DNA of 64,000 bases. It comes from Sabellastarte sp. h YS-2021 (Eukaryota; Annelida; Polychaeta; Sabellida; Sabellidae). The DNA is taken from contig OZ024929.1 in NCBI GenBank assembly GCA_964017235.1, positions 162,673,609 through 162,737,608 on the forward strand, in the 5' to 3' direction. This document shows positions 1 through 63,880 of the stretch, piece by piece; position 1 is the first letter of the stretch; every line of letters begins with the position of its first letter. A program made the translations under genes and the position numbers. The notes under the pieces are model-generated. The model worked only from the letters and a program-made list of their open reading frames with translations. It had not been told where the DNA came from and did no database searches.

Positions 1-843
1 AATGAACTTACAAACTTTCTGAATGGTGATAGAATAGTATATGTTGAACCTTTCCGAAATCCACTGCCAAGAAGGGCTCAAATTGGAGGAGAAAGTGCCG
101 TTATCTTCCACAGAGGCCAAAAGAAATGGCAAAAACCCCTGTGCAACAACTGTTTTCAAGAGGGTCACTTTCGAAATCAATGCCAGAATGAGCCTTGCTG
201 CATGGTGTGTAAAAAGCCAGGTCACAGCCCAGGTGAGCCTATCTGTCCAGGATCAGCAAAACAGTTGCATAAGAATGTTGAGCCTTTCCAAGGTTACGAA
301 AGCCCATTGAGTAACTATTATCCCTGTGACTTTAAAGTCTTTGGTGTTGAGGTTAAGTCAGCTGAACATGGCTATCAGTTCTCCAAGGCTGTACAGTGTG
401 GACATGAGGATATTGCTAACCAGGTTCTCTCTGCAAAAACTGCATTGCATCCAAGGCACATTGCCTCATCACTTCCTTTTAATCCAAACTGGGAAAGTGT
501 TAAGGAGGGTCAAATGGCACAAGTCCTGGAAGCAAAGGCAAAATAATGCCAAGAATTTTGTGACATGCTGAAAGAAAGCGGAACAAAAATCTTAGCCGAA
601 GCTGTACCTGGCGACTTCTTTTGGTCGGCAGGTCTCAACAAATGTGACATTTTAAAAGTGAAAAAGAACAGTGTGCCTGGGCAGAATCGAATGGGGAAAC
701 TTCTTATGGATATAAGAGCAAAAGTTGCAAAACAAAAGACATGGAAATCAAGCCAAAGAAGAAAAAATCAGGGAAAGACAACAGCCAGGCAAACCAATGA
801 CAGAAGTGAATCGGAATCAGATTATTATTTTTCTGACTTGTAA
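1..843 (+). pseudogene. LINE ORF1: CCHC zinc knuckles fused to a NADAR (YbiA-like) domain
   Basis: Frame 1 is open from base 1 to an in-frame TAA at 544-546, then continues open in the same frame to the stop at 841-843, so one nonsense change separates the halves. Near residues 49-80 are two knuckles: CNNCFQEGHFRNQC (CX2CX4HX4C) and a CX2CX4HX6C variant. Residues from about 100 onward read as NADAR: PLSNYYPCDFKVFGVEVKSA, then EHGYQFSKA, and after the stop a segment with DFFWSAGLN and GQNRMGKLLMDIR, matching the conserved 'LSNFYP', 'EHYYQ.KA', 'D.FWG.GL' and 'G.N.LGKLLM..R' blocks of the family. The C-terminus is basic and then acidic/serine-rich. Knuckles are typical of LINE ORF1 RNA-binding proteins. 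The NADAR part is unusual and implies an ADP-ribose-type ligand, which is inference. The N-terminus is outside the window. Confidence 0.8.
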
Positions 844-2105
844 ATTTGTAGCTGAGGTTATATTTTGTGGGAGTGAATATTGTGAAATCTCTACTCTGAC
901 TATTGTAGTACAATAAGCTTTATTATGTTTATTTGATACGTGAAGTTACAGTATATATTGTAAAAAATGCCCAAAAAATTCAGTTTATTAACATGCAATG
1001 TTAGAGGTCTGAATGACCTTAACAAGTGTAGGAACGTATTTTCATGGATAAAAGATCAAAACATTGATATTGCTTTCCTGCAGGAAACCTTTTGTACACC
1101 AAACTTTGAACAAAATATAAAAACTGCCTGGAAAGGTGAGGTTCGAAATGCATGTTCTGATTCCAGTCACTCAAGAGGTGTAAGCATCTTGTTTTCTGAA
1201 AACTTTAAAGGTAAAATCATAAACACTGAAATCGGTGAAAATGGTAGAACTTTATTGGTTAATTTAGAGTACAACAACGAAATATTCACAGTAGTGTCTG
1301 TATATGCTCCAAACTGTGAATACAGCAGGATAGAGTTTTTAAAAAACTGACTAAGTGGGTTCAACAACATACAATTAACAGTAATAATGTTATCATTGCT
1401 GGTGACTTTAATGTGTGTGTCCACCCTGTGGATAGGTTTCCTCAAAGGTCTTTGATAGATAAAAGTAAAAAATGTTTTGATGTTTTCTAGACCAGTGCAA
1501 GTTGCTAGATTGTTGGCAAACAAAACATACAGGTAAGCCCGGTTTTACGTATTATGATAAGAAACACAAAAGCTACAGTAGATTGGACTATTGTCTATTA
1601 TCACAAAATTTAAGTAATGTCTTATCTGAAATTTTTATTAAACAACCACCAAGTGAAAGAAATGTTATTGATCATAAAGCCCTTATTATTTCTTTGAAAT
1701 TAAATACCATAAAACGGGGTCCCGGTTACTGGAAATTAAATAACAGTATTCTGGGAGATCATGAGTACACTTTCAATATTCAAAATATTATAAAAGAAAC
1801 AATTGTGCTATGCAAAAACAAATTGAGTAATCGACTTATCTGGGAGCTATTAAAAATAAATATCAAAGAATACTCGGTAAATTTTAGCGTTAAAAGGGCA
1901 AAATTATTAAACACAGAATTAAAAGATCTTCAGAATGAGTTAGACTCTCTTAATGATATAATAACTGAATATCATATTAGAGGAGAAACTACTGCCAACC
2001 TTGAATGTCAGAGGGATATTTTACAATCCAAGTTAGTGAAACATTACAAACTGAAGAGTGAAGGTATTGGTGTACGATCTAGGGCAAAGTGGATAAGTGA
2101 AGGTG

Positions 2106-2199
2106 GCATTCCCCTACCAGAACTATCAGCAAAAGATAAAAAGTTTTGTGACAATCCTTTTAGTGAACAAGAATTTAAGGATGTTGTTTTTGACTTAAA
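2106..2199 (+). repeat. 94-bp templated insertion copied from 2412-2505 of the same LINE
   Basis: Bases 2106-2199 duplicate 2412-2505, and the insertion is bracketed by a 22-bp direct repeat (2084-2105 and 2200-2221) that looks like a target duplication. The insertion causes the reading-frame break at 2212. Confidence 0.85.
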
Positions 2200-3988
2200 G
2201 CAAAGTGGATAAGTGAAGGTGAAAAAAATTCAAAATATTTCCTTGGTCTTGAGCAACAAAGGCAAAGTAGTAATATCATAAAAAAATTAAAAGTAGGGGA
2301 TAAAACTGTGTCTAATGAAACTGATATTCTCAATGAATTAACTAAGTTTTATAAAAAATCTCTATTCAAACCATGAGTCACTTTCTCCAAATGTCAATAG
2401 TTACTTAGCAGGCATTCCCCTACCAGAACTATCAGCAAAAGATAAAAAGTTTTGTGACAATCCTTTTAGTGAACAAGAATTTAAGGATGTTGTTTTTGAC
2501 TTAAAACTAAATAAATCCCCTGGTTTAGATCGTCTGACACCAGAATTTTACAAAGCTTTCTGGAATTACATAAAGTCACCTTACTTGGATATGATAGCCG
2601 AGTCATTCTCCCAAGGTATCTTACCAGAATCCACAAGAAAATCTGTAGTAACTTTGATCTACAAAAAGGATGACAGAGAGTTGTTAAAAAAACTATAGAC
2701 CAATTTGCTTAAGTAATTATGACTACAAATTATTATCATTTGTTTTGGCCAAAAGACTTCAAAAAGTAATTCACCATTTAATAAGCACGGTTCAAACTGG
2801 TTATATTAAGAATAGAAATATAGCAACAAATATAAGATTGATTTCTGATGTAATTGAAAAATGTGAATTTGAAAACTCACCTGGTTCAGTAATTGGGCTT
2901 GGTTTTGAAAAGGCTTTTGATAGCCTCAGTTGGGAATTTATGCAAAAAACAGTTGAGAAGTTTGGCTTTGGGGAATTTTTTTTGCAAATGGATTAATATC
3001 ATATATACTGATCCATCCCTTATCATAACAAATAGCGGATGGTTAACCAATAAGATAGCTATGGAAAAGGGGATTAGACAAGGATGTCCTTTGTCAGCAC
3101 TTTTATTTATCCTATCTGTCGAATGCCTGTCCACAAAACTACGTATGTCAAAAAACATTGACGGTATTAAAATTGGAGATACAGAAATACGAGTCCTGCA
3201 ATATGCAGATGACACAACATTGACCGTGTCAAATAATTCCTCCATAGTCCATGCACTTCAAATAATACATGATTTCACTGTGTTTTCTGGACTAAAATTA
3301 AATATGGAAAAATGTGAAGGACTATGGCTAGGAACATTGAGAAACAATCCAAAAAATTTTCATCAAATCAAATTCAACACTGAAACAATTAAAATTCTTG
3401 GGGTTTATGTAGGAACGGACAGTCAAAAGTGCATATAAAAAAACTGGGATCCAAAACTCAAACTATTTCAGAACTTATTGCTTAAGTGGGAATCAAGAAA
3501 AATCACAGTTCTGGGAAAGGCAGTAATAATAAATTCACTGGCCATACTCCTGATAAATTTCCACCTATCTGTCCTAACTGTACCTGAAAGTATACTGAGG
3601 CAATTTGAAAACATGATATTTTTTTTCTATGGGGAAAAATCCATAAGGTTAAAATGAGTGTTATAAATGAACAGTTATTGGAAGCCCAAGGTGTGGTGGC
3701 CTTGGTATCACGGATATCTTCTCCAAAGAAAGGGCATTGAAAGCTTCCTGGATCCCAAGGTTAATTGATGAATCAAAAACAGCAAAAATCTTTCAAATGC
3801 ACCTCCAAAAATGTGAGATACCATTGCATATATTGTTAAAAATGAACTTCAGAAATATAAATAAAATCGATTGCTTACAAAAACTCCCCTTTTTTTACAA
3901 AGATGTAATTAGTGCATATCACTCATGTAAATATATACAGCCAATTGTGCAACAAAATAATTATGACTTTTTCTCACAAGTTATATGG

Positions 3989-4137
3989 AGGTCCTCAGTG
4001 GCCTAGTGGTTAGCAAGTTTGGCATCTAATCATAGGCTGTCACCTCTGTGGGTTCGAGTCCCACAAGTGGCAATTCTGAGCACCTGTCCCAATATGACCC
4101 TGGCTGTTGAAGGGGACGTAAAACCCCAACTTTGACT
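3989..4137 (+). mobile_element. tRNA-derived SINE (family 1), intact copy with 15-bp TSD
   Basis: The head resembles a tRNA promoter: an A-box-like GGCCTAGTGGTTAGCAA and a B-box GGTTCGAGTCCCACAAG. The body ends in AAAACCCCAACTTTGACT rather than a poly(A). The repeat TCACAAGTTATATGG occurs at 3974-3988 and at 4138-4152, a 15-bp target-site duplication. It interrupts LINE ORF2. A near-identical copy lies at 17809-17955, a diverged one at 53818 and a deleted one at 29553. Confidence 0.9.
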
Positions 4138-5058
4138 TCACAAGTTATATGGGGGAATGAACTTTTCAGATTCAAGGACCTTCCTCTGTGTTTCAAAAAC
4201 TGGATGGATTGTGGCTTTATTTTAGTTAAAGATTTATTTGATGGTGATGGTAAGTGGGTCAGTGAAAATTATGTCTTCAATAGGTTAACACGTAAACAAA
4301 ACTGGATGAGTGAATACACTATTTTGAGAAAGGTTATTTCTAATATTGCTAAAAAATTTGATCCTAAATGCTGTAAGTATATTAATGTAGTGAAAGCTTA
4401 TAGTAGAAAAGTAATTTTAGGGAACTCTGTTTTTGACCTTTCCTCAATAAATGCTAAGATTCTTTATGATGTTTTGATTACAAAAAAGTTTATTAAACCC
4501 TATACTGAAAATATGTGGCAAAGTGAAACTGAGACAATTATCTCCAGGAATGATTGGCATATTGTTTACAACATGAATTCAAAGCTTCAGTACAAAAAAA
4601 TTGCTGAATTTAAGTATAAAATACTTCTTAATTTTTAAGCTGTGGAGAGAGGGTCAATAGATGGGATAAAGATATTTCAAAATTTTGTGAATATTGTAAA
4701 GATAGAGAAAATGTTTCACATATGCTGTTTTCCTGTGATAGAGTAAGAAATATTTGGTTTTTAATAGGTGATGAATTAAAAATAACGTTAAGACTGAAAC
4801 ATATTGTGCTAGGTTTTCTGGACAGAACACAAAAAAGTGAAGTTAGAAACCTAGTTATCATCATCATAGCATACTCAAATGTACAGCTGTTGGAATCTAT
4901 GTAAGTTTAAAAAACAAAGCTATAAAGATGCAAATATAAATGTGAAGATAAAGAAGAATTTACAGTTTTACAAAGCCGTCTTTGTGTATTTGCTTGACAA
5001 AAAAGGTTATAACTATTTACAATTTTGTGTAGATAAAATTTTACATATTTTGTAATAT

Positions 5059-9310: not shown

Positions 9311-9799
9311 AATGTAATGCAGTGTTTCCACTGGAACCGACCCTGTAACTGACCCTACGACCCTAGGGTTGGTTGCAAAAGTTGTAGAGTCGTGAGAAAA
9401 AGCACGGGAAAATGGTGGGTCTGTTATGAAATCCCGACAGGACGGTAAAGTTACAGACAGGTCGTACTGGCCATCCTGACAAGCTGTAGGGTTGGGAACC
9501 TTTTTTGCACGGCCAGTCATATAGCTTCTACGACAAGCCTTAAACCCCTAACAGACAAGCCGGATCGCAAACAGACAAGCCGTAAAGACAAACAGACAGG
9601 CCTGGAGCATGTTCCCAACCCTTCCTGACAGAACTGATTGTTTTTGTGGGTCGGAATCCAGAATCGGGATCCATATCACACTATATAAACCCCTCTCCTA
9701 TGATATGCCATTCATTTTACACTTAAAAGATGACAGGAACACATCAAGAGCAACTGATAGATCACTTGATTTTTTTTGGTTTTATTGAGTTTAATTTTT

Positions 9800-11064
9800 T
9801 ATTGTACTTGATATTTTCAAGACACAGAAGACAGCAGAACCCAGCACCTGCCCAGCCAGCATCACCATCACCCCCACCTCCATCACCCAGAAGGAGAAGG
9901 AAGCCACAGAATCTATGGGTCCTGCCTGGATACTGCAGAGAGAGGAGAGAGGTTGCTACAGAACACTCTTGGGTGAGCTAATCACAACTGACATACCAGG
10001 CTACAGAAATTTCACCAGGATGGAGCCAGCATTTTTTTTTGATTGAAGAAAGAATCATCCCCCACCTCAGGAAGTCAATCACCAACTTCAGGCAACCACT
10101 GGAAGTCGGTTTGAAACTGGCAGTTACTTTGAGACACTTATCCACAGGGGAAAGTTACACCTCACTGTAATACCACTGGAGGGTTGGAAGATTGACCATC
10201 TGCAAATTTGTCCCCCAGGTCTGCCAAGCCATTTTAAAAGAATTTCAACAAGAGTATCTGGTGTGTCCCACTGATCCTGAAGACTGGAAGAAAATTGAAC
10301 AAAGATTTAGAAATAGATGGAATGTCCGCCATGCAGTCGGTGCATTAGATGGAAAACACATGCTATCAAGAAGCCCAAGAAGTCAGGCACTGAATATTTA
10401 AACTACAAGGGCTACTTCTCCCTGGTACTTTTGGCTTTAGTCAATGCAGATTACAAGTTCCTGTGGGTCAACGTGGGGGCCAGTGGGTCATCATCTGATG
10501 CACAGATTTTCAACCGCAGCAAACTGAAAAGAAAAATTGAAAACAGAACATTGGGACTACCACCACCTGAACCACTTGGACCTGGGGGCCAGATCTACAC
10601 TACTTCCTGCTGGGGACGACGCCTTTGCCCTGATTCCTTGGCTGGTCAAGCCTTACAGTAGATGCCAACTGACCAGAGAAGAGAGAATAACCAACTACAG
10701 GATATCCAGGGGGAGAAGGGTGGTCGAGAACTCATTTGGTATACTTGTCAAGCAATTCAAGGTGCTGTTGACCACCATGGAACAGAGGCCAAAAGTTGTG
10801 AGAGACATTGTGTTAACATGTGTGGTACTACATAACATGTTGGGAAGCCATCAGGGGGCAGCAGACAGACCACCCACACCAGCTGACAACATACAACTAC
10901 CACAGGCAGACCAGGGGGAACAGGGACATAATCGTACCTTCAGAAACCCATCGAGGGAGGCCAAACATCAAGACCTACTGAAAGACTACTCCAAACATCA
11001 AGACCTACTGAAAGACTACTTCAATCACACCGGGGCGCTGGCTGGGCAGGAGGACAGATATTAA
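9800..11064 (+). pseudogene. Harbinger DDE transposase, HARBI1-like, broken
   Basis: Encodes the nuclease that cuts and joins Harbinger ends. A proline-rich, basic N-terminus (about 9830-9910) is followed by GYRNFTRM, then in the 10192-11064 region the catalytic motifs GALDGKH (first Asp), SSDAQIF (second Asp) and [15 protein letters not shown] (Glu), plus the family signature VLHNML. At least three frameshifts (about 9980-10040, 10180, 10370 and 10600) break it. A perfect 30-bp in-frame duplication (10961-10990 and 10991-11020) lengthens the C-terminus. The same protein is encoded on - at 32866-34037 and 55540-57405. Confidence 0.85.
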
Positions 11065-11084
11065 GAAGACTGAGGGGAGAAGAC

Positions 11085-17144: not shown

Positions 17145-18440
17145 ATGGACCATTCATTAATGTGCATATCAGTGGACCAAGGCCCTTTATTGTTCTCATT
17201 GTACACCACCCCCCTCAGTTTGATTATAAGCAAATATAAAGGAATAAAGTTTCATTTTTATGCAGATGACAGTCAAATTTATGTGCATCTATCCCAGAAG
17301 AATGCATCTGCTGCCTTTGAACAGTTGAACAGGTGCCTAAATGATGTTAAAGATTGGATGTCTACTAGTAAGCTCAAGTTGAATCCTGACAAGACTGAGT
17401 TTATCATCTTTGGTTCAAAGAGACAGAGGGACAAGTTGAAAGCATGTTTTCCTATCAATATTTTGGGCAATCCAATCTGACCTGTTGGCTCAGTCAAGAA
17501 TTTAGGTGTGTGGTTCGATTCTGATTTGTCGTTGTCCAAGCATGTTCAGAATGTCTGCAAAAGTTGTTTTGTGAAACTCCGTTATTTCAGACATGTCAGG
17601 CAGTTTCTTATTCACGATGTTTCTGTACTTGTAGCTAATGCTCTTGTTAGTAGTCGGTTGGATTACTGCAACTCATTTTTCAGGAGTTCAATCTACATAA
17701 ATTATAATGCATCCAAAATAGTGCAGCCAGAATTGTATCAAACACCAGTCGATACACCAGTATAACTCCTGTGCTTAAGAAATTGCATTGGCTTCCTGTT
17801 GAACAGCGAGGTCCTCAGTGGCCTAGTGGTTAGCAAGTTTGGCATCTAATCATAGGCTGTCACCTCTGTGGGTTCGAGTCCCACAAGTGGCAATTCTGAG
17901 GACCTGTCCCAATATGACCCTGGCTGTTGAACGGGACTTAAAACCCCAACTTTGACCTGTTGAACAGCGCATAATGTTTAAGACAGCCACACTTGTTTAC
18001 AAGTTTCTTCACACAGGTTTTCCTAGGTATTTGCTCCATATCTCTTGTCCTACAGCAGTTCTTACCATACCAGGCACAGTCAAAGTGGTGGCAATTTTGT
18101 TGTCATTCCAAAGTGCTATCCTTCTGTTCATAAATCTGTCAAACAGTTTGGTAATAGTTTTGCTTTTGATGCTCCTACTGTCTGGAATACTTTTCCAGAT
18201 GAGATTCATGCAACACCCTCCCTAGCCTCTTTCAGAAAGCAGCTTAAAACCTACCTGTATACCAAAGCATACCCACCTTGGCCTTGTTCATCCCCTGGCA
18301 TTCTCCGTGGTGCTTGACCCCTCTTCTGTCTCTGGATATTGAAATTTGGATGACTGCTTTTATGGTTTTGTTGCGCCTTAAAGTCCTTTTGTACAAGGAG
18401 ATTAAGCGCTATAAAAGTCCAATTAGAATTAGAATTCAAC
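17145..18440 (+). mobile_element. CR1/L2-like LINE, RT 3' half, split by a SINE
   Basis: The plus strand reads [32 protein letters not shown] (catalytic box at about 17260), MSTSKLKLNPDKTEF, KNLGVWFDSDLSLSKHV, SRLDYCNS, and after the SINE at 17809-17955 TPS LASFRKQLKTYLY up to about 18290. The 3' end is a short (ATTAGAATT)-type microsatellite at 18421-18437, as in L2 elements. One stop (17478) and frameshifts make it inactive, but it is the best preserved CR1/L2 copy in the window. Confidence 0.85.
17809..17955 (+). mobile_element. tRNA-derived SINE (family 1), intact copy with 14-bp TSD
   Basis: Nearly identical to the copy at 3989-4137. The repeat CCTGTTGAACAGCG flanks it at 17795-17808 and 17956-17969. 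It interrupts the CR1/L2 LINE within a conserved 'LHWLPVEQR' codon block. Confidence 0.92.
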
Positions 18441-22400: not shown

Positions 22401-25400
22401 TTATTTTATAAACGTTTAATAATTGTTTTCAGTAAAAATGTTTGAAAATAGAATGTTTATAAAACGTTTTACAAACATTACAGTGTTAAGATATGCTCGG
22501 AAACGTTTAGAAAACCAAAAGATAGGGTTTAAATAGGGTTTAAAAACATTTTGTTAACGTTTAAACCATTTTAAAACGCTTTTAATGTTTACTGGGGAAG
22601 TAGGGTTTGGTTTAAAAAATAATTGATAGTACACACAATAAAAATAATCAGATCCTGCTTTCATAATGTATGGCATACCCTGCCTTCATAATGTATGGCA
22701 TACCCTGCTTTCACAAAGTATGGCATACCCTGCTTTCATAATGTATGGCGTACCCTGCTTTCATAATGTATGGCGTACCCTGCTTTCATAATGTATGGCG
22801 TACCCTGCTTTCATAATGTATGGCGTACCCTACTTTCATAAAGTATGGTGTACCCTGCTTTCATAATGTATGGCCTACCCTGCTTTCATAATGTATGGCA
22901 TACATGTGATAATTTTGTAATGTGAAAAGTATACTCAAAAAATATATTTATATTGTAATAGATTGTTTTCTGAGAAAGCGTTAGAAGTTAGAACTGATAA
23001 ATGTCTAGAAAACGGTAACAGGCGTAGTATATATTTTCATTTGTTTTTCCATACAGGTGAAGAAAAAGAAGGTAAGTCTTTAATTAACACTATTTACCAA
23101 TGATTATTTACCAAGAACAACCACATACAGTGAAACATAGCCTAGGATAGTATCATGATATAACATTTATATCTGCATGTCTAGCTGATCCTGGACAAGT
23201 GAATATAGGAGATTCTAAGGGGTGCAAAAGACTCTGATTGATCAAGTTAGTTGCACCATAAGCCATTCAGAAAGTTCTATAAGATAAGTATTGGAAATGC
23301 TGATAATCTAATGTTAGTTGCTAGCCAAAAAAAAAAATAGTTGGTGGCCATTTAAAAGTCACAGGAGCTTAGTTTCAGCAACTGCTATCCTCGTACTTTA
23401 AAGTCTTATTTAATAAGCATTGAACGTTTCATCTCAAATTCAGCTAGTTAGAAACCTCAACTTGATACTTTTGTCAGAAAGTCAAAATTTATAGTGAACA
23501 AATAAATCAGATGGTAGACATATTGTCAAATGGACAGATTAATGATCCTTTAATAGCCCCTTTCACAAAATGACAGCAATGAAGACTTGAAAATTGGTTG
23601 ATATATGTGAGGGATAAATCATTAAAGTTTTCAAACATTCTTATTGTTGGATTGCAAAAATTGGCATATTTTGAGGATCTTGACATGAAGTGGCACTCAA
23701 ATATTTGAAATACTTTCAAATTGATTTGATTAATGTTGTTTTGACCTTCCTGTGCAGACACTACAAAGGCATACCTTTGAAAATAACAGCATAAACATCC
23801 TTTCATTGTCTCAGTCAGAAATATACACCTTATAGTATTCTTAACTGAACTAAAGATATAAGTAAATTAAACATTACCTGCGAAAGGAAAACACTGGTGT
23901 AAATGAGAAGTTATTTATCATAAAATTTACTATTGCTGTTTCATGCTTCATCATAACTTAAAAATTGCAATTTTACCTAATGGACAATAAGCTATATCGC
24001 TAGCACCGACCGGCCTCATCAAACATCAGAAAAAGACATCCTGTGTCTCCACCATCCAGACCGGTTAGATTGCCCCCATTCACTGTGTGGCATGCAGTAC
24101 TTCCTTCCTGGCTAGAGAACGTGATGTCATAGCATCTTTTTCCTTCATCTAACCTTAGATGACCCCTTGTTTGATGAATGTAGGGTCTGTTGGGAGGTCC
24201 TCACTTGTCCAATAGGTAAGATATAATTTATATAACTTAAATTTAAAATTATATTGCATTAATAATCTAACCTAATGGACAATTAGCTGAAAATAAGTAC
24301 TGCTTGGAAGGTGGGTAGCTTATTAGGGACTTTAGATTGAATTCAAAGAGACATTATTGTTCTCAGGGGACATTGGGTGGTCCTATTGGTCGGTTGCCGG
24401 TGAATTGGTGGCCTGCATCTACCAAAGTTGTTCCCCCTTTTTACAGACCTCCTGTAAAGTATTGTATTATGTATTCATACCCAGCGCAATATCTCCATAT
24501 ACTACAGGATGACCATTTATCAACGTCCTTGAGGTTCTTTAGCCTGCCACTGGGGATATCACCCAATGACAGAGGACCACCATTTAAAGTGGTCATCTGA
24601 GCCACTATTTATCTGCCCGTACCTCTGAGTTCCTAGAGAAGTGTGTTACCCGCTAGGCCACAGTGGCAGATGAGTAAAGGATGATAGGTGTGAGTCTGGT
24701 CCCTGGAGAGGCCCTCTTCTGAAGGAGGAGGTGTCTAGCTGATAGTCTTTGAGAATCCAGAGCTAAGAGGAACACGGTCTTAAAGGTAAGATGCTTCAAA
24801 GGGTCCAAAGGGAGCCTTTGTAAACTGGAGAAGTACCAGAGAAAGGTCCCAAGAGGGGATGTACCTTTAACCCTTAAGTCTGTCTCTATATAAACTATCC
24901 AGGAAACAAGTGAGATTTTCGTCCTTGCTGACATTGATGGGTGAATGTCCCAATTTGTCTGCTGTGGCTGATCTAAAGCCATCAACAGTACTTGGCTGTA
25001 ACTTCCTGACCCTTTGGTCAAAATGGTCCACTTTACTTCATAGACTGATCTGGTTGAGCCTCTTTAAGGAGCCTTAATTCGTGCTGCCCCCGCCTCAGAG
25101 AAGCCTTGGTCCTTGATAGCTGACACTCTAGAGGCCAAACATGGGGATTAAAGTTTTACAGATTCTTGTGCTGAATCTGATTGAAGGGTTGAATCAACAG
25201 ATTGGGCAAGTTGGGCAGGCACAGGCTTGACATAGCTACCAAATACCAGAACCAGGGTATGTTGGGCCACCCCGGAGCAATTAGGATGATTCTCCTGCAT
25301 GGATAGTCCCTTGGTTTCGCCACCATTTTGCCCAGAATGGCTACTGGTGAGAAGGTATAGGGGTCCAGATCCTCCCAAGGTAGACTGAGTGCATTTACTG

Positions 25401-31600: not shown

Positions 31601-34600
31601 CATTAATATATACTCACCATACCGGATACTCAACCAGTCTCCACACCAGTTGTGCAGCCTACTCAGATAGGAGCATCACAACCTGCTACAGTGGTTGCCA
31701 AAGTACAGCAACCACAGTGGTCAGCATCAGCGTCATCACAGCCTGCATCTTTCATTGTGGTAGATGACCAGCAGCCTGGGCCTTCCAGAGAACTGATGTT
31801 TGCTTTGAGCCCAACAAAGACATTTAACCCGCCATCCGTCACCTCTGTCAACCGGAAGACAGTGAACACAATACTTCTGGATTATCAAGTCTCATCGGAA
31901 GTATTCCAAGCATACTACAGTACCAGCAGATCGACACACCACAACCATTTTCACCCTCTCAACTTCAACCAGCACTGTCACCTGTGCCAACTACCACTCA
32001 ACAAGAAAAAGCAAGACCTCCCAGCCAATCCAGCCAACAGAGTCAGCCCAAATCAGCCGATTAGCCTTCATTGAGTCGCACCAAAAAGGCCCTTATAATG
32101 GCCATCTGAATCTTTCCAAAACAATTATTCAGCTGCTTGTTCTTCCCAAAAACAAAATAAAGCACACCGTCCAACACTTACACTTTCCCCAAATACATAA
32201 AAAATTGTGTGAATGAATGAGTGAATGTTTAACACAAATTAAAAAAAAATCAGAGAAACACAATCCCAAAAAATGAAAAACTTAACTTGGAATGAATGGG
32301 TGGATGGACTGACAGACATACAGACAAACAGACACTGTCACAGACAAACACTTTACCTGAGAAAAATATTCCCCGACATGACTGACAGCCTTAGTGACTG
32401 ATTGAATTAGCTTTTAACAGATGAGCAACACCTCTTTGTGGGTGTCATTCCTTACAGATATTTCTTAAAGCTCTTTTGGTTGAAATATCAAATTTAAAAA
32501 ATTACAAATATGTAGTGAAATTAGAATTTTACATGAGGTCAAACTAATTCAAAAATATTAAAAGACAAATTTGGAGTGTAATAAAAAATATTTTTTTCTA
32601 AAAATTCAAAACTCATGTATGTGTAGATTTTGAACATTGACATTTCAGGACTTGGGTTTAAATCTTTAGATTTTTCATTAATTTAACAAAGGAAACTGTT
32701 TTGAATATAGTTTGAAGAAAGGGTGTAAATTTGTCTTTGGGCAACAGTGACTTGGAATTTAGTTTATTATTTGTGTAAAACCATTATAATAAAAGTTCTT
32801 GGACTATTTTGGTAGTCCTAAAAAGGACTGACAGATGAGAGCTTGTTCTCCCCTCAGTCTTCTTAAATCCTGTCCTCCTGCCCAGCCAGTGCCCCTAGGT
32901 TATTGAAGTAGTCTTTCAGTAGGCCTCGTTGATGTTTGCCCTCCCTCGATGGGTTTCTAAAATTCTCATCCTGTCCCTGCTCCACCTGGTCAGCCTGTGG
33001 TTATTATATGTCGTCTGCTGGAGTAGGTGGCCTGTCTGCTCCACCCTGATGACTTATCAGCATATTATATAGTACCAAACATGTTAACACAATGTCTCTC
33101 ACAACTTTTGGCCTCTGCTCCATGATTGTCAGCAGTACCCTGAACCTTCCCACAAATATACCAAAAGCATTTTCTACCACCCACCTGCCCCTGGATATTC
33201 TGTAGTTGGCTACTCTCTGGTCAGCTGTCTTCTGCTGTAAGACTTGACCAGCATCAAAGGCATCATCCCCCAACAGGAAGTACATTTGGCCCTCCAGGTC
33301 CCATTGGTTCTGGTGGTGGTAGCCCCAAGGTGCCGTTCTTCATTTTTCTTCTCAGCTTGCTACAGTTGAATATCTGTGCCTCAGAAGATGAACCACTGGC
33401 CCCCGGATTGACCTACAGGAACTTGTACACTGCATCGACCAGGGCTAACGGTACCAGAGAGAAATAACCCTTGTAGTTAAAATATTCACTGCTGGACTTC
33501 TTAGGTTTCTTCACTGCAATATGTTTGTCATCTAGTGCACCTACAACACGGGGGACATTCCATCTGTTTCTAAATTTCTCCTCAATCTTTCTCCACTCTT
33601 CAGTATCTGTTGGAATTGGACAGATCAAATATTTATGTTGAAATTCTTCAAGGATGGCTCTGCACACCTTGGGGACAAATTTACAAATGGTAGTTCTGCC
33701 AACCCTCCAATGGTACTGCTATATAGCTTTCTCCTGTGGAGAGGTGCCTGATTGTAACTGCCAGTTTCAAACCAACTTCTAGTGGCTTCCTGAAATTGGT
33801 GGGTGACTATCTGAGACTGGGGTAACTTCTTTCTTCAATTAAGTAAAAAGCAGGTGGCATTCTGATGAAGTTCCTGTGACCTGTAGGTCAGTTGTTATTA
33901 GCTCGTCCAAGAGTGTTCTGTAGCCATAACCTGTGGGTTCTGCGGCTTCCTCCTCCTAGGTGGGTGGGCTCTGTCTGTGGTGGTGGTGCTGGCTGGGCAG
34001 GTACTGGGTTCTGTTGCCTTCTGTGTCTTGAAACCATGAAGAAAAATAACATATTCAACTCAATTAAAAAAACAAAGGACCCTCAACTTATCAAACAGTT
34101 CATCTTGATGTATGTCGTTGCAGTGAGAAATGAGTGGCTTCTCACAGGTGATGAGGGGTTTATATAGTGTGATATGGATCCTGATTCTGGATCCCAACTA
34201 TAGATACCGACCCCCCAAATCAATCAGTCTTGTGATGGGTCGTGGACGGGGTCCAGGCTTGACTGTTTGTCTTTATGGCTGGTCTTTAGGGTTTGTCTTT
34301 ACTGCTTGTCTTTACAGCTCTGTACTCATGCGGCTTGTCTGTTAGGGGTTTAGGGCTTGTCATACTACTTCTACGACTGATCTTGCATAAAACGCCTCAA
34401 CCCTATGGCTTGTTGCTGTAGTCATCACATTCTGTCTGGAAGTGTACCGTCTTGTCGCGGGTTTCTTAACTGACTGTATTTCACGCCTTTTTTTTCTACG
34501 ATCCTATGACTTTTACAACCGACCCTAGAGTTGTAGGGTGGGTTACAGAGTCGGCTCCAGTGGAACACCTGCATTACTTTCAGTGTTATATACACTGACA

Positions 34601-37600: not shown

Positions 37601-40600
37601 AATGGTTTTGCAGAGTGAATGCAGGTCACCACCTCCTAATGAAGGTTTGTATGGCTTAATATTTAGTGTATTAGTGTATTAATATTTAGTGTATTTTATT
37701 ATTCCTACATTCATCACTTCCATCTTGTCTCTTCAGCGGGTCATGGTTGCAGAGTGGTAACACTCTTGCCTCCCACCTCTGAGGCTGGGCTTCGGTTACC
37801 GGCATGGCCTCAAGTGGGAAAGCTGGTAGTTGCTTGCCGTTGGTCGGCAGTTTAGAGTACAGAGCCCTGATGAACTGTATATACTGGTTTCCTCTGCCCT
37901 TCCAACTACCCATCGTGATATGACCTGTACAGTGTCGACGTAAACCCCCAAATAAAAAAATCTTATCTCTCCAGCAAAAGTACTTTTAAGATTTTTCCAA
38001 AACTATATTTCTGAATAAACAAGAATATACCATAGCTTGGATTAGAATGTACCATAATACAAATATGTGGCTTTCCAGGACTATAATTCCTTGTCACATT
38101 CATTGACATGTATGTTATACCTTTAATTAAGTAATTTTGTTCCACTTTCCCTCAACCAAGTCAGGGATGCAGGTTTACCACTGTTGGCAACAAATTTGGC
38201 AAAAGAATTAGCTGGGCCTCATCTCTCTTGGACAAAACTGTAGAAGGGTCTGATCTGCTATTGGGGACTTGACTTTCTAAATGTCGTTTTAAAGTGTCCT
38301 TTGATATTCCCATTACTTTAGCAGCTCGATATACTGTCATAATGATATTCCTTGAAATTTCAAATACCTGGATATTTCGTTCTCATTGATTTCAAAAAAG
38401 CTTTTGATTCTATAGAATGGGATTTCCTTTTTAATGCACTACACAAATTTAATTTCGGGCCACAGTTTATCAAATGGATCAAAATTCTTTATAATGATAT
38501 CTCTTCCTGTGTAGGAAACAATGGTTATTATTCAAGTTATTTCAAACTAACAAGGGGGATAAGACAAGGGTGTCCAATATCAGCCTTACCTTTTCCTGAT
38601 TGTGGCAGAAATAATGGCCATTAAACTGAGACAAAGCAATAACATAAAAGGTATAACCATAAATGGGGAAACTTACAAAGTAAAAATGTTGGCAGACGAT
38701 ACCAGTCTTATCCTAAAAGATATGGCCTCTATAGAACTTGCCATAAAAGAATTTCAAGCATTCTCAAAGTTTTCAGGCTTACAACTCAATCTTGACAAGA
38801 CTGAGATAATACCAATTGGCGTTAATACTAAAAAACATCACAAAAAGCCATTGTCATTATCTGAAATCAAAATTAGAACTGGGTGCTTTAAAACTTTAGG
38901 TGTATGGTTTTCAAAAAGTGTTAAAGAAATGGTTCGTTTAAATTTTGAAGAACGGGTAGAAGATATGAGAAAAATATTGTGCATATGGAATGTCAGAAAT
39001 CTATCTTTAAAGGGGAGAATTACAATCATAAAGTCACTGGTTCTGCCTAAGGTAACTTTCTTACTGAGTTTGATTTATGTCCCAAAAGAAGTACTTGATA
39101 GAATAAATAAAATACTCATGGATTTCTTATGGAGACACAAAATGTCAAAAATTAAAAAAGAAACTATAACAGGTCTTATTGAGGATGGAGGACTAAAAAT
39201 GGTGGATGTTCATAAAATGAATATTGCTGCCAAGTGCGCCTGGAAAAAACGCCTTGTTTGTAGTGAAAATGTTAATAGTAAAGTTTTGTTTTTAAAAATG
39301 TTGTCTATCAATGAATTCATGTTGAACAAAAAAATAGGTCTTTCTTATATACAAAACTGCCTGTCTCCCTTTCATCAACAGGTACTTGAAAGTTGGGATG
39401 ATTTCTATGGCATGGAACCAGTGTCAAACTCTGAAATTCTAAATGAATATGTACTGTACAATAAAAATATTAAAATTGGCAAAAGACCCATCACAGTAAA
39501 TCAATTCCCAAATAAATATGGCAACAATCTGAAAATATTAGATATACTAGATAATAATGGTTGCATATTAAAAAGGGTCAATCTTAATGAAAAGTTAGAA
39601 TCGGACATAAGTCAAATGTTTTACAATTGTATGTTGACTGCTGTACCTGTAATTTGGAAGAAACAGGTAATGCATGAGAAATTGAATAATATAGAGCGCT
39701 GGTCAGATGATGTTATGCTTTATATAAATAAGAAATTAATACCAATAGAAAAAGTCAGTAGTAAATTAGTATACACTCATTTGATCAAAGAAAATACAAA
39801 ACCACCTACATCATTAAATGTATGGGTTGAATTATACCCCTTTTTGGAAAACTTTAACTGGAGTCATGTTTTCAGATTACCATATAAAATTATGAAAGAA
39901 AGTTATATTCAAAGTTTTCAATATAAAATCTTGAACAGAATCTTAAATTGTAATTATAATTTACATAAATGGGGCATCAAGGATTCACCACTCTGTATTT
40001 ACTGTAAAAAAATTGATACCATTCAGCACCACCTTTATGAGTGTAAAGACAGTATGACACTATGGATCAAAATTGGGGATTGGATATATGAAAAGTTACA
40101 AGTAAAATTTAAATTTACTGTTTGTGAAGTTATTTTTGGCTTACCATTAACAGAAGACCCATTGTTTGACGTGTTGAACTGTATTATAATGTATGTAAAA
40201 TATTACATAAATGGTAAAAGAAACAAAAATAAAAGTCTCTTGTATGTTGAACTCCTTGGTTTAATAAAAGAAAAAGTCAAAGTATTAGTCCAAATTGAAG
40301 AAGATGGTTGCCCTGTTATAACAGATAGGGGCAAGATTAAAGTGGCCTTTTATAAATTGCTTTTGGTTTAACACAGTTTTGTTAATTATTTTTCTACCTA
40401 AGTCCAATCCTTTCATGCATATATTTTGTTCACACTTGTTCTTGTATTTTGTCTGAAATTGTCTTATTTGTATAATATTTTATATGTATGTATAAACTCT
40501 ATGTTCTTTCCGTTCTTTGTTTAATAAACTATTGAAAAAAAAAAATTCCTTGCCATACCATCCTTTTGGCCTTCTTGATGGCTTCTGCAGTATATTTCTT

Positions 40601-43600: not shown

Positions 43601-46600
43601 CATCTTTTTCATTTGGCGCGTGCAAGTGCACAAGGATTTTGAATTTAATTCTCAATTTTATATTTTATGGTGGCTATTTCTGTTTTGGGACGTTTTAACA
43701 TATTTCATTTCATAGTACTTATATTAGAGATCTACTATGTCTTCACCAGGACAGCGAAGGGGGCTGTGTGGCCATATTATGGCAGGTTATGACAGACATA
43801 AAGTCTGTGCTCGTTGCAGGGACAAGAAAAAAGGTGAAGATAACTGTGTTAAAGATCTCCCTTGTATCAGTTGTGACGTTCTCACAGAGGAACAGAAAGC
43901 AAAATTAGCCACCCCACAGTATCAAAAGAAAAAAGAAAAGCGTGAGGCTAAGGCCTTAGAAGATTCCAGTACTACGCTTATTGACCCTTCATCTGTGTCA
44001 GTCATTGGTCTAGCTAGTGAAACTGAAGCAGCGAACTCAGAAGAGATGAGTACCACCCCTGCGGGTGCGAAAATCAAGAAAGCCGTTAAGAGTTCTGAAG
44101 CAGTGAGTAGCACCCCTGAGGCTGCGAAAGCTATGAAATCTGACCAGACACCAGACGCTAAAGTGACCAAAGGGAAATCGTCTAAGAAAAGACATTCCTC
44201 ACCGGCTAGATCTTCAGCCCCTTCTACGGACACCAAGCTTGAAGCCATGGACCTTAAATGGTCCGAAAGGTTTAGCAGACTTGAAGCCATGCTGCTCTCC
44301 AAAACCATCAGTCAACCTACACCCGCTTTCCAGTCGGTCAAGGTTACACCTGTGAAACCCCCACCGGCGGGTGCCTTGGATACGTCTGAGCCTTTCTTTG
44401 CACTGGCCAGATCCACCGACCTTTCTTCAACTGCTCAGCCAGCTTCACTCCGACCTCATCCGGACCGACCTCCTATCACCGACCAGTCCCTTGCCGGACC
44501 GGTGGAACACCCTCCAGCGTCTACATCTGGTGTTGAGGTCACTCTTCAAGTTTCAGAGTCTGACATGGACGTTTTATCTGATTCTGACTCCGAATCTCTC
44601 CCGGTTAAGGTAGACAGAACGGAGGAAGGGGAACTTTCAGATGTAGAACAGGACTTATCACTTACAGAAACTGATCACTTATTGTCGGAAGAGCAGAATT
44701 ATAGAGAGACCATGAGTGGGGTTAGATCGTTCATGGGATGGACTCACATTCCGGAGGTCGACTCCGCTTTATCAAGCTCTGAGGATAACCCATTCGCAGC
44801 ACCAAAGCAACAACCGACGGGAAAGACTAGCGTAAATTTACCCACAGACGACTGGTTGTGTCGCAAGATGGACCGACTAAATGTAACTTTGGTGCAGGGT
44901 TACCCCTCTAGAAGTTCGGAGACTGGAGATCTCCAGAAAGATCAATTTGTGAAGTATGGCAAATCACAAGGGAAGTGGTACGGCCTACATCCCGGCCAGG
45001 ACAAGCCAGCCGGTAGTGTTTCCTTTTGGCATTCAGAAGCTGCAAAGCTGAACAGTTCATTTAGTAGGGTCTCTAGACCCAGTGGTTTAACCTCACCGGC
45101 TCCTCCATCTCGTATCAAGACACCTTGAGGTGATGGGAGAAGAGTGCCCGGGAAGCAACTTATATATGCAATCAGGCCGCAGGTCTTAGCCAGTGTGTAA
45201 GCAAAGTTCAACAGAGTATGGCATCTCAACTGAAGATTTTACAATCTGAGCACAGCAAGGGCAAATCGGCAGATAAGGTCGGTGGGGCTACGGAGGAGTT
45301 GCAGTATCTCATGACTTTTAACTCTTCCATTACACAGTGCATGGCAAAGACTATGGAACACTTATCTGACTTTGCCTTCGTCTGTATGTGCAATTTTACT
45401 CTGGCCTGAAGGGATTCTTATTTAGCACACATGAAGACCGGACTTAAACCGGATACCTTGGCTGCCCTTCGTCAAGCACCTATGGAATCTGCAACTCTCT
45501 TTCCAGATACCATATTGAAGAAAGCAGAGGATGACATCTCCAAATTTGAAGAGAGAGGACACTCTCATGCAGGCTCATCCAATCGTAAGGAATCTCGTTA
45601 TCACCCTTACAAGAGAACCGACCGACCGGCCTACAACAATAAGTCTTCAAAACCAGCCTGGAAAAACCTGGGACGACAGTTCAAGAAAAAGAGCAGAATG
45701 CAGGCCGGAAAGTTTTCCTCGCGTCAGGCCAAGGGTCAGTCTGCTTATAAATGACAATTACCCTGTAAAATTCTTGTTTCCAAGCAGACTGACCGGAAGC
45801 AGAAAAGAGTTGAATCAAAGGACTTTAATTCCTTGTACAAAGACTCAGTCAAATGTAAACCCTCTTGCTGTAAATTCTGTAGTTTCTGCACCCGGGCTGC
45901 CACAAAGGAAAGGCATAAGTCCTGGGTTGGCAGAATGTTATGTTCAACCAGTTTGCAAATTAAAATCTGTGCAAAGTGTTTCATGTGTCACTCAATTACC
46001 TTATGTCAAAACTGTAACAAATGCCTCGAATGCTGTACTAAATCTACCTGTAGGGGCAAGACTTCAAAACTTTTGGCAAGTTTGGCAGGACCTGGGCGCC
46101 AGCCCCATAGTGGTTCAAATCCTGAAAGAGGGTTACACTCTCCCGTTCCGGATCCGCCCCAAGCTAGTAAGATTCCCAACTGTCGTGAGCTGTTATGTAA
46201 ATCCCCACAGGAACAGCTACCTGATGGAGGCATTGCATCAGCTTACCGACAAAAATGCAGTGGAAATAGTACAAAACCAAAAATCTCTGGGTTTCTTCAA
46301 TCGGCTATTCCTAGTACCCAAACCAAACAACAAATGGAGACCCATACTGGACTTAAGCAACCTCAATCTCTTCCTCAAGGTGGAGAAATTCAAGATGGAG
46401 ACACCGGAAACCATCAGGTCATCACTCCAACAAGGGAAATGGGTCACATCCGTAGACTTTCAGGATGCCTATTTCCATATTCCAATACAGGAACAATCCA
46501 GGAAATATTTGAGATTTCACGTCCAAGGGCGAACATACCAGTTCAAGGCTCTGCCGTTCGGACTGTCCACAGCACCCTTGGAGTTTACTGTGGTCGCAAA

Positions 46601-49600
46601 GGAGGTGAAACTGATGGCCACACACAGGGGTATAAGAATCCACCAGTACCTAGACGACTGGTTGGTGAGGGCCAAATCCCGCGAAACTTGTCTCCACCAT
46701 ACCCAAGTCCTGATCAAAATGTGCCAGAACCTAGGGTGGCTGGTGAATTTAGAAAAATCAGAGCTGGAACCCAAACAGATCTTCGACTTCGTAGGTTACC
46801 AGTTCGACCTCCGGTCCGGCCGGGTCAGGCCGACCCCGGACCGGTGGCAAAGCCTTCAGGACAGGATACAACTACTCCTGTCGTTACCGGTCTGTCCGGT
46901 CCGGCAGTTCATGTCCCTGATAGGCCTACTAACAGCCACACAAAAAAACAGGTCGGCCGACTGCACATGAGACCCATACAGTGGCATCTCAAGAACAACT
47001 GGAGGGTACCAGAATCTCTAGAGAAGATTATTCCCCTACCAAGGTCCCTACACCCCCATTTACAATGGTGGCTAGAGGAAGACAATGTGCTTCAAGGCCA
47101 ACCACTACACCCAGTAAGACATGCTCTGCAGATATTTACAGACGCATCAAAAGAAGGGTGGGGCGCTCACTTAAACGAGCTCACTGCAAGAGGGACCTGG
47201 TCGTTGCCGGAAAGCAGACTGCACATAAATTATCTAGAACTCAAAGCGGTTTTCCTGGCCCTCAAAGAGTTTCAAGACCTTTGTGTAGACAAAATGGTTC
47301 TGGTGGCAACCGACAATACTACAGTGGTAGCTTACATAAACAAGGAAGGAGGCATGAGGTCAGGCCCACTGTGTGCCCTACTGTGGAGAATCTTGACCTG
47401 GTGTTCCCAGCGACAAGTGACTCTAAAAGCCAGACACATCCCAGGCCATTTAAATGTGATAGCAGACAAGCTATCCAGGCTGGGTCAGACCATCCAAACA
47501 GAATGGTCCCTCCTTCCGGAAGTTTTCCAACAACTATGCAATCAATGGCACCGGCCTCAAATAGACCTATTTGCCACGAGGTTCAACCACAAGTTACCTC
47601 AGTTTGTCTCTCCGGTACCGGACTCCCTGGCTATAGCAGTGGATGCGCTCACCCTGCCATGGGACGATCTGGATGCATACGCCTTCCCACCAACTGCTAT
47701 ATTGGGCAAAGTGGTGGAGAAGCTACTGGACTCCCCGTGCAAGAGACTCATTCTGATTGCTCCCGGATGGCCCAACATGCCTTGGTTTTGGGACCTAGTG
47801 ACCATGTCCAGTCAGATCCCTCTCAGCCTGCCCAACCTGCCCAGTCTTCTAACACAGCCTTTCAATCAGATCCCTCACAGAAATCTGACGAATCTAAACC
47901 TCCATGCCTGTCTCCTAGAGCCTCAAAAATCAAAGAACAGGGTTTCTCTGAGGCAGTGGCAGCAAGAATTGAGGCTCCTCAAAGAAAGTCAACCAGATCA
48001 GTCTATGAGGCAAAGTGGACCATTTTTACAAAGTGGTGCGACACTAATCAGGTGGACTTCAGGTCACCACCTGTAAAGGCAGTGGCTGACTTCTTAATGT
48101 ACCTCTTTGAGGACAGGAAGTTACAGCCCAGCACCATTGATGGATACAGATCTGCCATTGCTGATAAACTGGGTGATACACCAATCAATATCAGCAAAAA
48201 TGATAACCTCACTCGTCTCTTGGAAAGTTTCCACAGAGACAGACCCAAAGGGCGGAGGGGAATACCCTCCTGGAACCTTTCCCTGGTACTACACCAGCTG
48301 ACAAAGGCTCCTTTCGAACCACTTAGGGAGGCATCTCTGAAGCATCTGACCTTCAAGACTGTTTTCCTTTTGGCCCTGGGCTCTGGTAAAAGACGGAGTG
48401 AGATCCACGCATGGCAGCATAAGAACATCAGGCACCAGTCGGACTGGTCTAAGGTGTCTCTTTTTCCATCCCCCAGCCTTCTCTCTAAGAACCAGCTGGC
48501 CAAGGAGGGTCCAGAGAGTGTAGCCCCCGTGGTCATACCAGCCCTGGCTCCTACTCTAGATAAATCCCTCAAGTCTGACAGATCCCTGTGCCCAGTCAGA
48601 GCGTTGCGCTACTATTTGGACAGGACTTCAGACCTCAGGCAACACAAGGAGTTAGTCTTTGTCTCCTTCAAGAAGGGTTTCGACAAAGCCATCTCCCCTG
48701 CCACTATCTCCTCATGGATCAAGCAAACTGTGATCCTATGCTATGAGCTCTCTGATCATCAGGCCCACACCCTACATCAAGTTAAAGCTCATGATGTCAG
48801 GGCCTTTGCGGCCTCTAAGGCCTTCCAATCGGGAGTTTCCTTAGAACAGATCTTAGCAGCCTGCCACTGGAAATCTCATAATACCTTCACCCAATTCTAC
48901 CTGAAGGATGTGGCTTGGGCTGACTCAGAGCTCTACCATCTTGGACCGGTTGTGGCTGCTCAGCAGATCCACCAACAGACTGGTACCTAGAGGAGATCTG
49001 TACATATGTAAATACTGGTACATATTTGTATATATTGCACATTTAGTTAAGAAGTAATAAAAAAAAAAAAATCTCTCACGTACTTCCTCCAGGAGGTGTT
49101 ATTTTATGGGATTGAACTCATCCCTCTCTTCCCCTACCTCAGAGCAGGTCTGTAAAAAAGGGGGGGGCAAGGTCGACTCTGACGGTTCCATTCCGGACAA
49201 CCGGATGATGATATTCGACCATAGCCTTAAGGGTGTTTTTGACTTCAAGGTCCACCCAGGCTAAAGGAGAGATTATTACAATCTCTGACATAAGTGTCAA
49301 CTTTTAATCCCTAGTAACTTACCCGCCGACCAAGCGGTAGTTATTCAGCTATTGTCCATTGGATAGGATGTATTAACGCAATAAAATTGCAAATTTAATA
49401 AGTAAATTAAATTTTTATAAGTTAATACCCTATCCAATGGACACACAAGACCCTCCCTCCGACCCCGCTATCAGCTTACTAGGGGTCTAATAGGTTTAGA
49501 CAACGAAAAAGATGCTATGACGTCACGCTGTCTAGACAGGAAGGAAGTACTACACACCATCTGGCGAGTGCACAGCACTGGGCCGGCCTGGCCAGTGGAA

Positions 49601-62603: not shown

Positions 62604-63880
62604 CTAGGCCTTGGATTGTTGGTGGATCTGCTGAGCAGCCACTACAGGGCCTAAATGGTAGAGCTCTGAATCCGCCCATGCCACATCCTTCAAATAGAAT
62701 TGCGTGAAGGTATTATGTGATTTCCAGTGGCATGCGGACAATATTTGCTCTAAGGACACTCCAGCCTGGAAGGCCTTAGAAGCTGCAAAGGCTCTAACAT
62801 CATGAGCCTTGACTTGGTGTAGGGTGTGAGCCTGCTGATCAGAGAGCTCATAGCATAGGATCACAGTCTGCTTGATCCATGAGGAGATGGTGGCAGGGGA
62901 GATGTCTCTATCAAAACCTTTCTTGAAGGAGACAAAGACTAACTCTTTGTTTTGCCTGAGGTCAGAGGTCCTGTCCAAGTAGTAGCGTAAAGCTCTCACT
63001 GGACAAAGGGATCTGTCAGACTTGAGGGATCTATCCAGGGTAGGGGCCAGAGCCGGAATGACCACTGGGGCTATGCTCTCTGGGCCCTCCTTGGCCAGCT
63101 GGTTCTTGGAAAGAAAGCTGGGAGATGGAAAAAGAGATACCTTAGACCAATCAGATTGGTGCCTGATATTCCTATGCTGCCATGCGTGGATCTCACTTCT
63201 TCTTTTCCCCGACCCTAAGGCTAAAAGGAAGACTGATTTGAAAGTAAGATGTTTCAAAGATGCTTCCTTAAGGGGCTCAAAGGGGGCCTTTGTTAGTTGG
63301 TGTAGTACTAGAGAGAGGTTCCACGAAGGTACTCCCCTCCTTCCTTTGGGTCTATCTCTGTGGAAACTGTCCAAGAGACGAGTGAGATTATCCTCTTTGC
63401 TGACATTGATTATAGTATTGCCCAGCTTATCAGCAATGGCAGACCTGTATCCATCAATGGTACTTGGTTGTAACTTCCTGTCCTCAAAGAGGTATAACAG
63501 GAAGTCAGCAATGGACTTCACAGTAGGTGTTCTGAAGTCCACCTGATTAGAGTCGCACCATTTTGTAAAAATGGCCCATTTTGCTTCATAGACTGATCTG
63601 GTTGAGCTCCTTTGAGGTGCCTCAATCCTTGCTGCCACTGCCTCAGAGAAGCCCTGCTCTTTAATCTTTGTGGCTCTAGGAGCCAAGCATGGAGATTCAG
63701 GTTGGTCAGATTTCTGTGAGAGATCTGATTGAAGGGCTGCGTCAGCAGGTTGGGTAGATTGGGAAGGCTGAGGGGAATCTGGCTTGACATGGCCACCAGG
63801 TCCCAAAACCATGGCATGTTGGGCCAACCCGGAGCAATGAGAATGATTCTCTTGCAAGGGGAGTCCTGTAGTTTCTCCAC
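62604..63880 (-). CDS. DIRS tyrosine recombinase, copy 2, intact
   Basis: Open frame 63935-62604 (443 aa). From about 63720 it reads the core-binding domain (QGFSEAVAARIEAPQRSSTR), then SGKRRSEIHAW (Arg), KAHDVRAFAASKA (HxxR), CHWKS and FTQFYL (Tyr), ending in QQIHQQSKA. All catalytic residues are present and there are no stops, so the protein could be active. The start is uncertain because the frame overlaps the RT-RNase H ORF. Confidence 0.92.

Follow-up and report, generated by a model that had tools for sequence, protein, structure and literature searches.

The window analysed here is a stretch of 64,000 nucleotides from the annelid Sabellastarte sp. h YS-2021 (contig OZ024929.1, positions 162,673,609 to 162,737,608). 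At its start lies a copy of a long interspersed nuclear element (LINE) whose first open reading frame (ORF1) encodes zinc knuckles followed by a NADAR domain. An earlier note, made from the sequence of the window alone, had pointed out this fusion directly upstream of an ORF2 with apurinic/apyrimidinic endonuclease (APE) and reverse transcriptase domains, and had suggested that the NADAR domain strips ADP-ribose marks placed on the element's nucleic acid by PARP-like or DarT-like activity of the host. The parts of the element are listed below; P0002 is an intact relative of this ORF1, and pocket residues are given with their equivalents in a Phytophthora NADAR.

1-840, + strand: 3' part of LINE ORF1, from residue 138 in P0002 numbering, with one in-frame stop at 544-546
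142-183, + strand: zinc knuckle 1, CX2CX4HX4C (standard), read off the translation; Pfam zf-CCHC match below cut-off
199-246, + strand: zinc knuckle 2, variant CX2CX4HX6C, read off the translation
268-741, + strand: NADAR domain (Pfam core 298-723), its extent taken from the structural match of P0002 residues 227-384
364-387, + strand: pocket residues E (364-366) and K (385-387), equivalent to E43 and K50
598-624, + strand: pocket residues E (598-600), D (613-615) and W (622-624), equivalent to E125, D130 and W133
844-963, + strand: spacer between ORF1 and ORF2
964-5052, + strand: LINE ORF2, split over several frames
964-1347, + strand: APE-type endonuclease, first part (Exo_endo_phos, 29.5 bits); nearest solved structures are of human L1 endonuclease
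2893-3435, + strand: reverse transcriptase, second part (RVT_1, 62.8 bits); nearest solved structure is L1 ORF2p (E = 8.8e-18)
3988-4136, + strand: repeat inside ORF2 resembling a short interspersed nuclear element (SINE), with more copies at 17808-17956 and 53818-53958

With the stop masked as X, frame 1 gives a Pfam NADAR match of 75.8 bits (E = 5.9e-21, cut-off 35.1), and the fusion is as the earlier note described it; searched alone, the two sides of the stop score 26.7 bits (below the cut-off) and 38.1 bits. The note had also read two CCHC knuckles. The first has the standard spacing but the second is a variant, and all matches of this ORF1 to Pfam zinc-knuckle families fall below their cut-offs. 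The region before knuckle 1 is part of what in intact relatives is a region resembling an RNA recognition motif (RRM), and the protein has the RRM-then-CCHC layout of a type I ORF1. Its tail, after the NADAR domain, is rich in serine, acidic residues and tyrosine.

Endonuclease and reverse transcriptase lie downstream on the same strand, as had been claimed, but the ORF2 is broken and the window begins inside the ORF1 (P0002 extends 137 residues further upstream). This order of domains is that of an APE-type element without long terminal repeats (LTRs). Among solved structures, the best match of the endonuclease is human L1 endonuclease (E = 1.1e-9, with L1 scoring over AP endonucleases), and the reverse transcriptase matches L1 ORF2p and then R2 (E = 1.1e-8); because both best matches are to L1 proteins, we regard the element as L1-group like. 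The copy in the window is dead: besides the stop in ORF1, its ORF2 lies in several frames, contains an exact 95-bp duplication (2105-2199 = 2411-2505) and carries the SINE-like insert.

NADAR in a family of type I ORF1 proteins

We collected relatives of this ORF1 by a search of 5.77 billion proteins, in which 14 proteins were kept from 615 candidates, and by a profile search, which yielded 48 proteins from 3198 candidates (41 of the 48 with a precomputed PF08719 match); the queries contained the NADAR domain, which biases both searches to NADAR-bearing relatives. P0002, a protein of 416 aa with 16 members, is an intact ORF1 with 96% identity to the window copy. Short fragments and two proteins without NADAR were omitted from the alignment, A2; its 36 ORF1s (35 relatives plus the window copy) all have a NADAR match (E of 0.01 or better). 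The two omitted proteins, P0048 and P0052, are more distant and ORF1-like with no NADAR match, so NADAR may be a module that was added to a common RRM-CCHC ORF1. Only three relatives come with an organism name, and all are bivalves: Pinctada imbricata, Magallana gigas and Crassostrea virginica. Pairwise protein distances in the NADAR domain agree with those in the N-terminal part (Mantel r = 0.85 for the 28 ORF1s filled in both parts; none of 5000 permutations was as high). Viral contigs scanned with the aligned ORF1s yielded 12 pattern matches and no confirmed relative. One further protein, P0050 (577 aa), combines a PHD-like finger (below cut-off), a GDSL esterase, a NADAR domain and a CCHC knuckle, and may represent a third kind of NADAR-bearing LINE ORF1.

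Copies in the same genome

The genome from which the window comes (a 1.786-Gb assembly of 647 contigs) contains 33 matches to window DNA 1-843, the window included, and 23 of them start ahead of knuckle 1 and reach at least position 704. Together with the 36 NADAR-bearing ORF1s, these matches rule out a chance insertion or a single copy, the outcome that the earlier note had set against its own claim. Besides the window, eight close copies (93-98% identity) span the full 1-843 stretch. Four of them (L030-L033) run to the usual end without a frameshift or premature stop; each of the remaining four is interrupted by a stop, a frameshift or both. Longer stretches around the four undamaged copies (L049-L052, taking in some 700 bp of upstream and 4.7-4.8 kb of downstream sequence) show in each an ORF1 open from its ATG over 416 codons and, behind it, an ORF2 whose frame is broken at least once. 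L053, from a family at 71% identity, has a long ORF1 frame and pieces of ORF2.

The NADAR domain as such is abundant in this genome, with 2705 first-look candidates; 150 of these were scored, and all 150 exceeded the cut-off. The window family scores 75.8 and 85.8 bits, below the lowest of the 150 (143.9 bits), so that list does not reach it. The number of candidates in a single genome suggests that much animal NADAR annotation may be transposon-derived.

Purifying selection on the NADAR domain is supported by the ratio of nonsynonymous to synonymous change (dN/dS, Nei-Gojobori), a comparison that the earlier note had proposed for intact copies. Among the window copy and the eight close copies (36 non-independent pairs, of which 32 were usable for NADAR, 33 for the knuckle half and 18 for the tail), dN/dS is 0.17 both for the NADAR codons and for the knuckle half, and 0.56 for the tail; pooled over the NADAR codons, pN is 0.011 and pS is 0.056. 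Against three copies at 81-86% identity, which are themselves damaged, the NADAR value is 0.18. Between the close copies and the 71% family it is 0.28, to which we give no weight as only 10 of 54 pairs were usable, and a family at 67% identity gave no usable pair.

Predicted fold and pocket

The NADAR domain of P0002 is predicted to have a YbiA-like fold. In the window copy the equivalents of E43, K50, E125, D130 and W133 are all present, in agreement with what the earlier note would expect of a kept ADP-ribose pocket, and the glutamate at position 125 is the one characteristic of the YbiA subfamily. Pocket residues were counted in 33 type I relatives, leaving out P0001 (the window copy) and the truncated P0037 and P0038. 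Position 43 is E in 31 of the 33 and D in two, position 50 is K in 29, and the E125 glutamate, located by anchoring on the tryptophan, is kept in 26. The four undamaged close copies have the same residues as P0002 at all 11 pocket positions. In one type I branch (P0040, P0041 and P0043) the catalytic lysine is replaced by M, and E43 by D in P0040 and P0043; judging from these replacements, activity in this branch may be lost or changed.

A second ORF1 architecture with NADAR

The same genome contains NADAR in a second, unlike kind of ORF1. We chose 20 loci from the 150 scored, with frames of at least 401 aa. Their ORF1s (L018 and others) begin with a coiled coil and a core resembling the RRM and C-terminal domain (CTD) of L1 ORF1p, the arrangement known as type II, and have NADAR at the C-terminal end in all ten scanned (147-153 bits). 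A4, a profile of ten type II ORF1s, matches the L1 ORF1p structures 2ykp (E = 1.5e-12 over positions 86-246) and 8bau (E = 2.2e-34); no ORF1p family is among the Pfam matches listed for these proteins. The equivalents of E43, K50, W89, E125, D130 and W133 are invariant in the ten aligned type II ORF1s, and the E125-position glutamate is found at 20/20 loci. Of 190 type II NADAR pairs five fall in the usable dS range, with dN/dS between 0.14 and 0.39 in four and 0 in one.

LINE ORF2 sequence follows on the same strand at 19 of the 20 loci (endonuclease only at L013 and L027; none at L026), and it falls into two groups. Nine loci, group A, match the L018 ORF2 with more than 1000 bits and the reverse-transcriptase half of L014 with 63-82 bits. 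The ten loci of group B have the L009 or L014 ORF2 as best match (at least 282 bits), and match L018 with at most 81 bits or not at all. The ORF2 in the window sides with group B (L009, 418 bits; L014, 294 bits; no match to L018 at the cut-off).

Our main NADAR tree has 69 chosen rows; further trees used 113 rows that fit the cutting pattern and 59 chosen rows, and none of the trees knowingly includes a cellular animal NADAR. The 20 type II NADARs form one clade with P0089 and a short element described below (support 100/98), and the type I NADARs form another with P0065, P0072, P0073 and P0075 (96/82). These two clades, which are sisters in this 69-row sample, are separated together with P0050 from 21 stand-alone NADARs, mostly metagenomic (97/88). 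P0050, P0073, P0039 and P0089 are long branches, so their placement is unsure. Since ORF1s of both types carry the domain, NADAR was joined to two unlike ORF1s, the source being either a single donor or two. L014, which has a group B ORF2, clusters with the group A NADARs (99/86), and the simplest reading of this placement would be an exchange of ORF1 between the ORF2 groups.

P0089 (267 aa, 55 members) is a NADAR protein whose front resembles, by eye, the end of the type II core; it is probably a type II ORF1 from another genome that has been cut short. The short element contains a single NADAR gene and tandem repeats of about 166 bp, as seen at eight inspected loci (L001-L008). Short NADAR frames of 167-179 aa make up 38 of the 150 scored rows, and three copies on three contigs (L001, L002 and L003) are 99.3-99.8% alike, so the element looks recently mobile. 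We presume, as a guess, that it is of Helitron-like origin.

Comparison with known systems

NADAR has been reported in the Pol protein of an Ectocarpus Gypsy element and in ORF1 of several Tx1 LINEs of Crassostrea gigas, with a suggested role in RNA processing (PMC12477816). The fusion of NADAR to a LINE ORF1 is therefore not new. The C. gigas elements resemble ours in having a LINE ORF1 with a YbiA-family NADAR, the ORF2 in the window being L1-group like; the comparison is by description and not by sequence, the report consisting of one sentence and a supplementary figure (PMC12477816). Added to it here are open copies, selection, the predicted fold and pocket, the second ORF1 architecture and the two ORF2 groups. 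The Ectocarpus element is likewise a retrotransposon with NADAR, but it is an LTR element and has the domain in Pol instead of ORF1 (PMC12477816). The parts ahead of NADAR fit the published type I (RRM and CCHC) and type II (coiled coil, RRM and CTD) ORF1s (PMC4120745); NADAR does not figure in the passages of that classification on the Jockey, CR1 and L2 lineages (PMC4120745). The literature that we searched, leaving aside subscription papers and preprints, yielded no account of NADAR in a type II ORF1, of the two ORF2 groups, of an analysis of selection or of the pocket, or of a link to the clam enzyme CARP-1 discussed below.

With DarT1-associated NADAR antitoxins and the Phytophthora NADAR, the ORF1 domain has in common the fold, as predicted, and the main pocket residues (PMC11543638). 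It differs from the DarT1 partners in being fused to a retroelement ORF1, in the lack of a DarT match in the genome, and in a glutamate in place of aspartate (PMC11543638). NADARs also occur in nidoviruses and in picornaviruses of bivalves and annelids, which, like our LINEs, are RNA-based selfish elements of invertebrates; they lie inside viral polyproteins, and we compared them only through fold matches among viral models (PMC9503650).

A possible eraser on the retrotransposon ribonucleoprotein

The roles of animal NADARs are described as unclear (PMC11125620). NADARs, eukaryotic ones included, hydrolyse N2-guanine-ADP-ribose (PMC11543638), and ORF1 domains of the RRM/CCHC and coiled-coil/RRM/CTD kinds are regarded as binding the transcript (PMC4120745). 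Taken together, these statements most simply point to an eraser kept on the ribonucleoprotein, and we infer, at roughly even odds (about 0.5), that the NADAR of LINE ORF1 removes ADP-ribose from bases of the element's RNA or cDNA and so counters ADP-ribosyltransferases of the host. ORF1p, in which RNA-binding parts (RRM-like domains and zinc knuckles) are joined to a YbiA-type NADAR hydrolase, would in live copies coat the element RNA; NADAR would release ADP-ribose from bases of that RNA or the new cDNA, guanine being the likeliest, by hydrolysing the N-glycosidic bond; and reverse transcription and integration would thereby escape a block by the host enzymes.

Several observations weigh against this proposal. 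Anchored on the tryptophan, 7 of the 33 type I relatives lack the E125 equivalent (10 do so by alignment column), and some lineages may therefore be inactive; this position ranks only 60th of 157 NADAR positions by conservation, and K50 is changed in four of the 33. Inside the 71% family the NADAR dN/dS is 0.85, which runs counter to the trend, although the changes in the 7 usable pairs of 15 are too few (dS = 0.012) to carry weight. YbiA of E. coli K-12 does not act as an antitoxin against DarT1 or YarT (PMC11125620), so the fold does not tell what the substrate is. Finally, a DarT profile search of the own genome had no match, in a six-frame translation with exons apart that a diverged or split gene could escape; in the control set DarT was matched in 1 of 14 genomes. 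A partner DarT, as a DarTG1-type antitoxin would have, was thus not found by this search, and the DarT version of the counter-defence put forward in the earlier note finds no support in this genome; the rest of that idea is the eraser proposed here.

ZAP (PARP13) has no transferase activity and was set aside as a writer of such marks; its restriction of human L1 is on record (PMC4441479). By analogy with clams, a better candidate than DarT would be CARP-1, a guanine-specific DNA ADP-ribosyltransferase (PMC11209040, PMC8053099). N2-guanine ADP-ribosylation of DNA was found in six edible clams, and Meretrix lamarckii has a CARP-1 without the receptor-binding part (PMC11209040). Proposed roles of CARP-1 are innate immunity to DNA viruses, NAD regulation, or both (PMC8053099). 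That NADARs erase these clam marks is called an unconfirmed assumption by PMC11543638; LINEs might use NADAR against marks of the CARP-1 type.

Other functions could also account for a conserved NADAR. Independently of any host defence, the domain could help in processing or repair of the RNA intermediate, the idea of the Ectocarpus authors (PMC12477816), and the nematode NADAR protein SNA-3 does act in RNA trans-splicing, with mutants of conserved residues impaired (PMC9303266). Activity of a NADAR on RNA ends is not reported in the portions of the literature that we consulted, and the occurrence of NADAR in two dissimilar kinds of ORF1 agrees no less well with pressure from outside, without deciding the matter; we think this role rather unlikely. 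Small ADP-ribose compounds such as immune signals or by-products are another conceivable substrate, as proposed for viral, chiefly phage, NADARs (PMC9503650), but macromolecular targets are favoured for eukaryotic RNA viruses (PMC9503650) and NADAR is joined to parts of RNA-binding type in ORF1s of either architecture; this points rather to a target on the ribonucleoprotein and makes small compounds an improbable answer. The losses of the catalytic glutamate (7/33) and lysine (4/33) could mean that many lineages keep NADAR only for binding or structure, as a pseudoenzyme; retention of the glutamate in 26 of the 33, the invariance of six pocket residues in 10/10 type II proteins and the intact pocket of the four undamaged copies make this comparably improbable. 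That the domain is a functionless passenger or local insertion, as the broken copy in the window might suggest, is contradicted by its presence in 36/36 ORF1s, its dN/dS of 0.17 and its co-divergence with the rest of ORF1, and deserves very little credence.

An element that keeps a NADAR pocket under selection beside RNA-binding parts offers the eraser reading a testable substrate, namely ADP-ribosylated bases of retrotransposon RNA or cDNA. If that reading is true, the clam guanine ADP-ribosyltransferase gains a possible target. NADAR ORF1s in related elements hint that ADP-ribose tags may serve against jumping genes. More broadly, and here we are tentative and lean towards doubt, ADP-ribosylation of nucleic acids might be an anti-transposon defence in some invertebrates, to which LINEs would have responded repeatedly–by joining NADAR to two unlike ORF1 architectures and passing it between LINE groups by ORF1 exchange, with NADAR also on the short, repeated element that has a single gene–the hosts being relatives of the clams that have a guanine-specific DNA ADP-ribosyltransferase.

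Other features of the window

A tblastn search of the window with 167 proteins (E of 1e-3) gave matches confined to the first 900 bases, with no second NADAR ORF1, and a bacterial-code scan of the window found no tRNA. The 3' half of another LINE ORF2 lies at 38563-40371 (a frame of 602 aa, with zf-RVT and RVT_1 below cut-offs); tblastn placed no NADAR ORF1 ahead of it. Window self-matches show a tandem repeat with a 25-bp period at 22654-22903. Stretches at 9314-11081, 32846-34577 and 56575-57444 are repeats of one another, which we take to be Harbinger-like, with a transposase-like frame at 10528-11064. Long frames of reverse transcriptase and recombinase type, recognised by eye, occupy 43728-48990 and 62604-64000; they are two related copies in opposite orientation, presumably DIRS-like.
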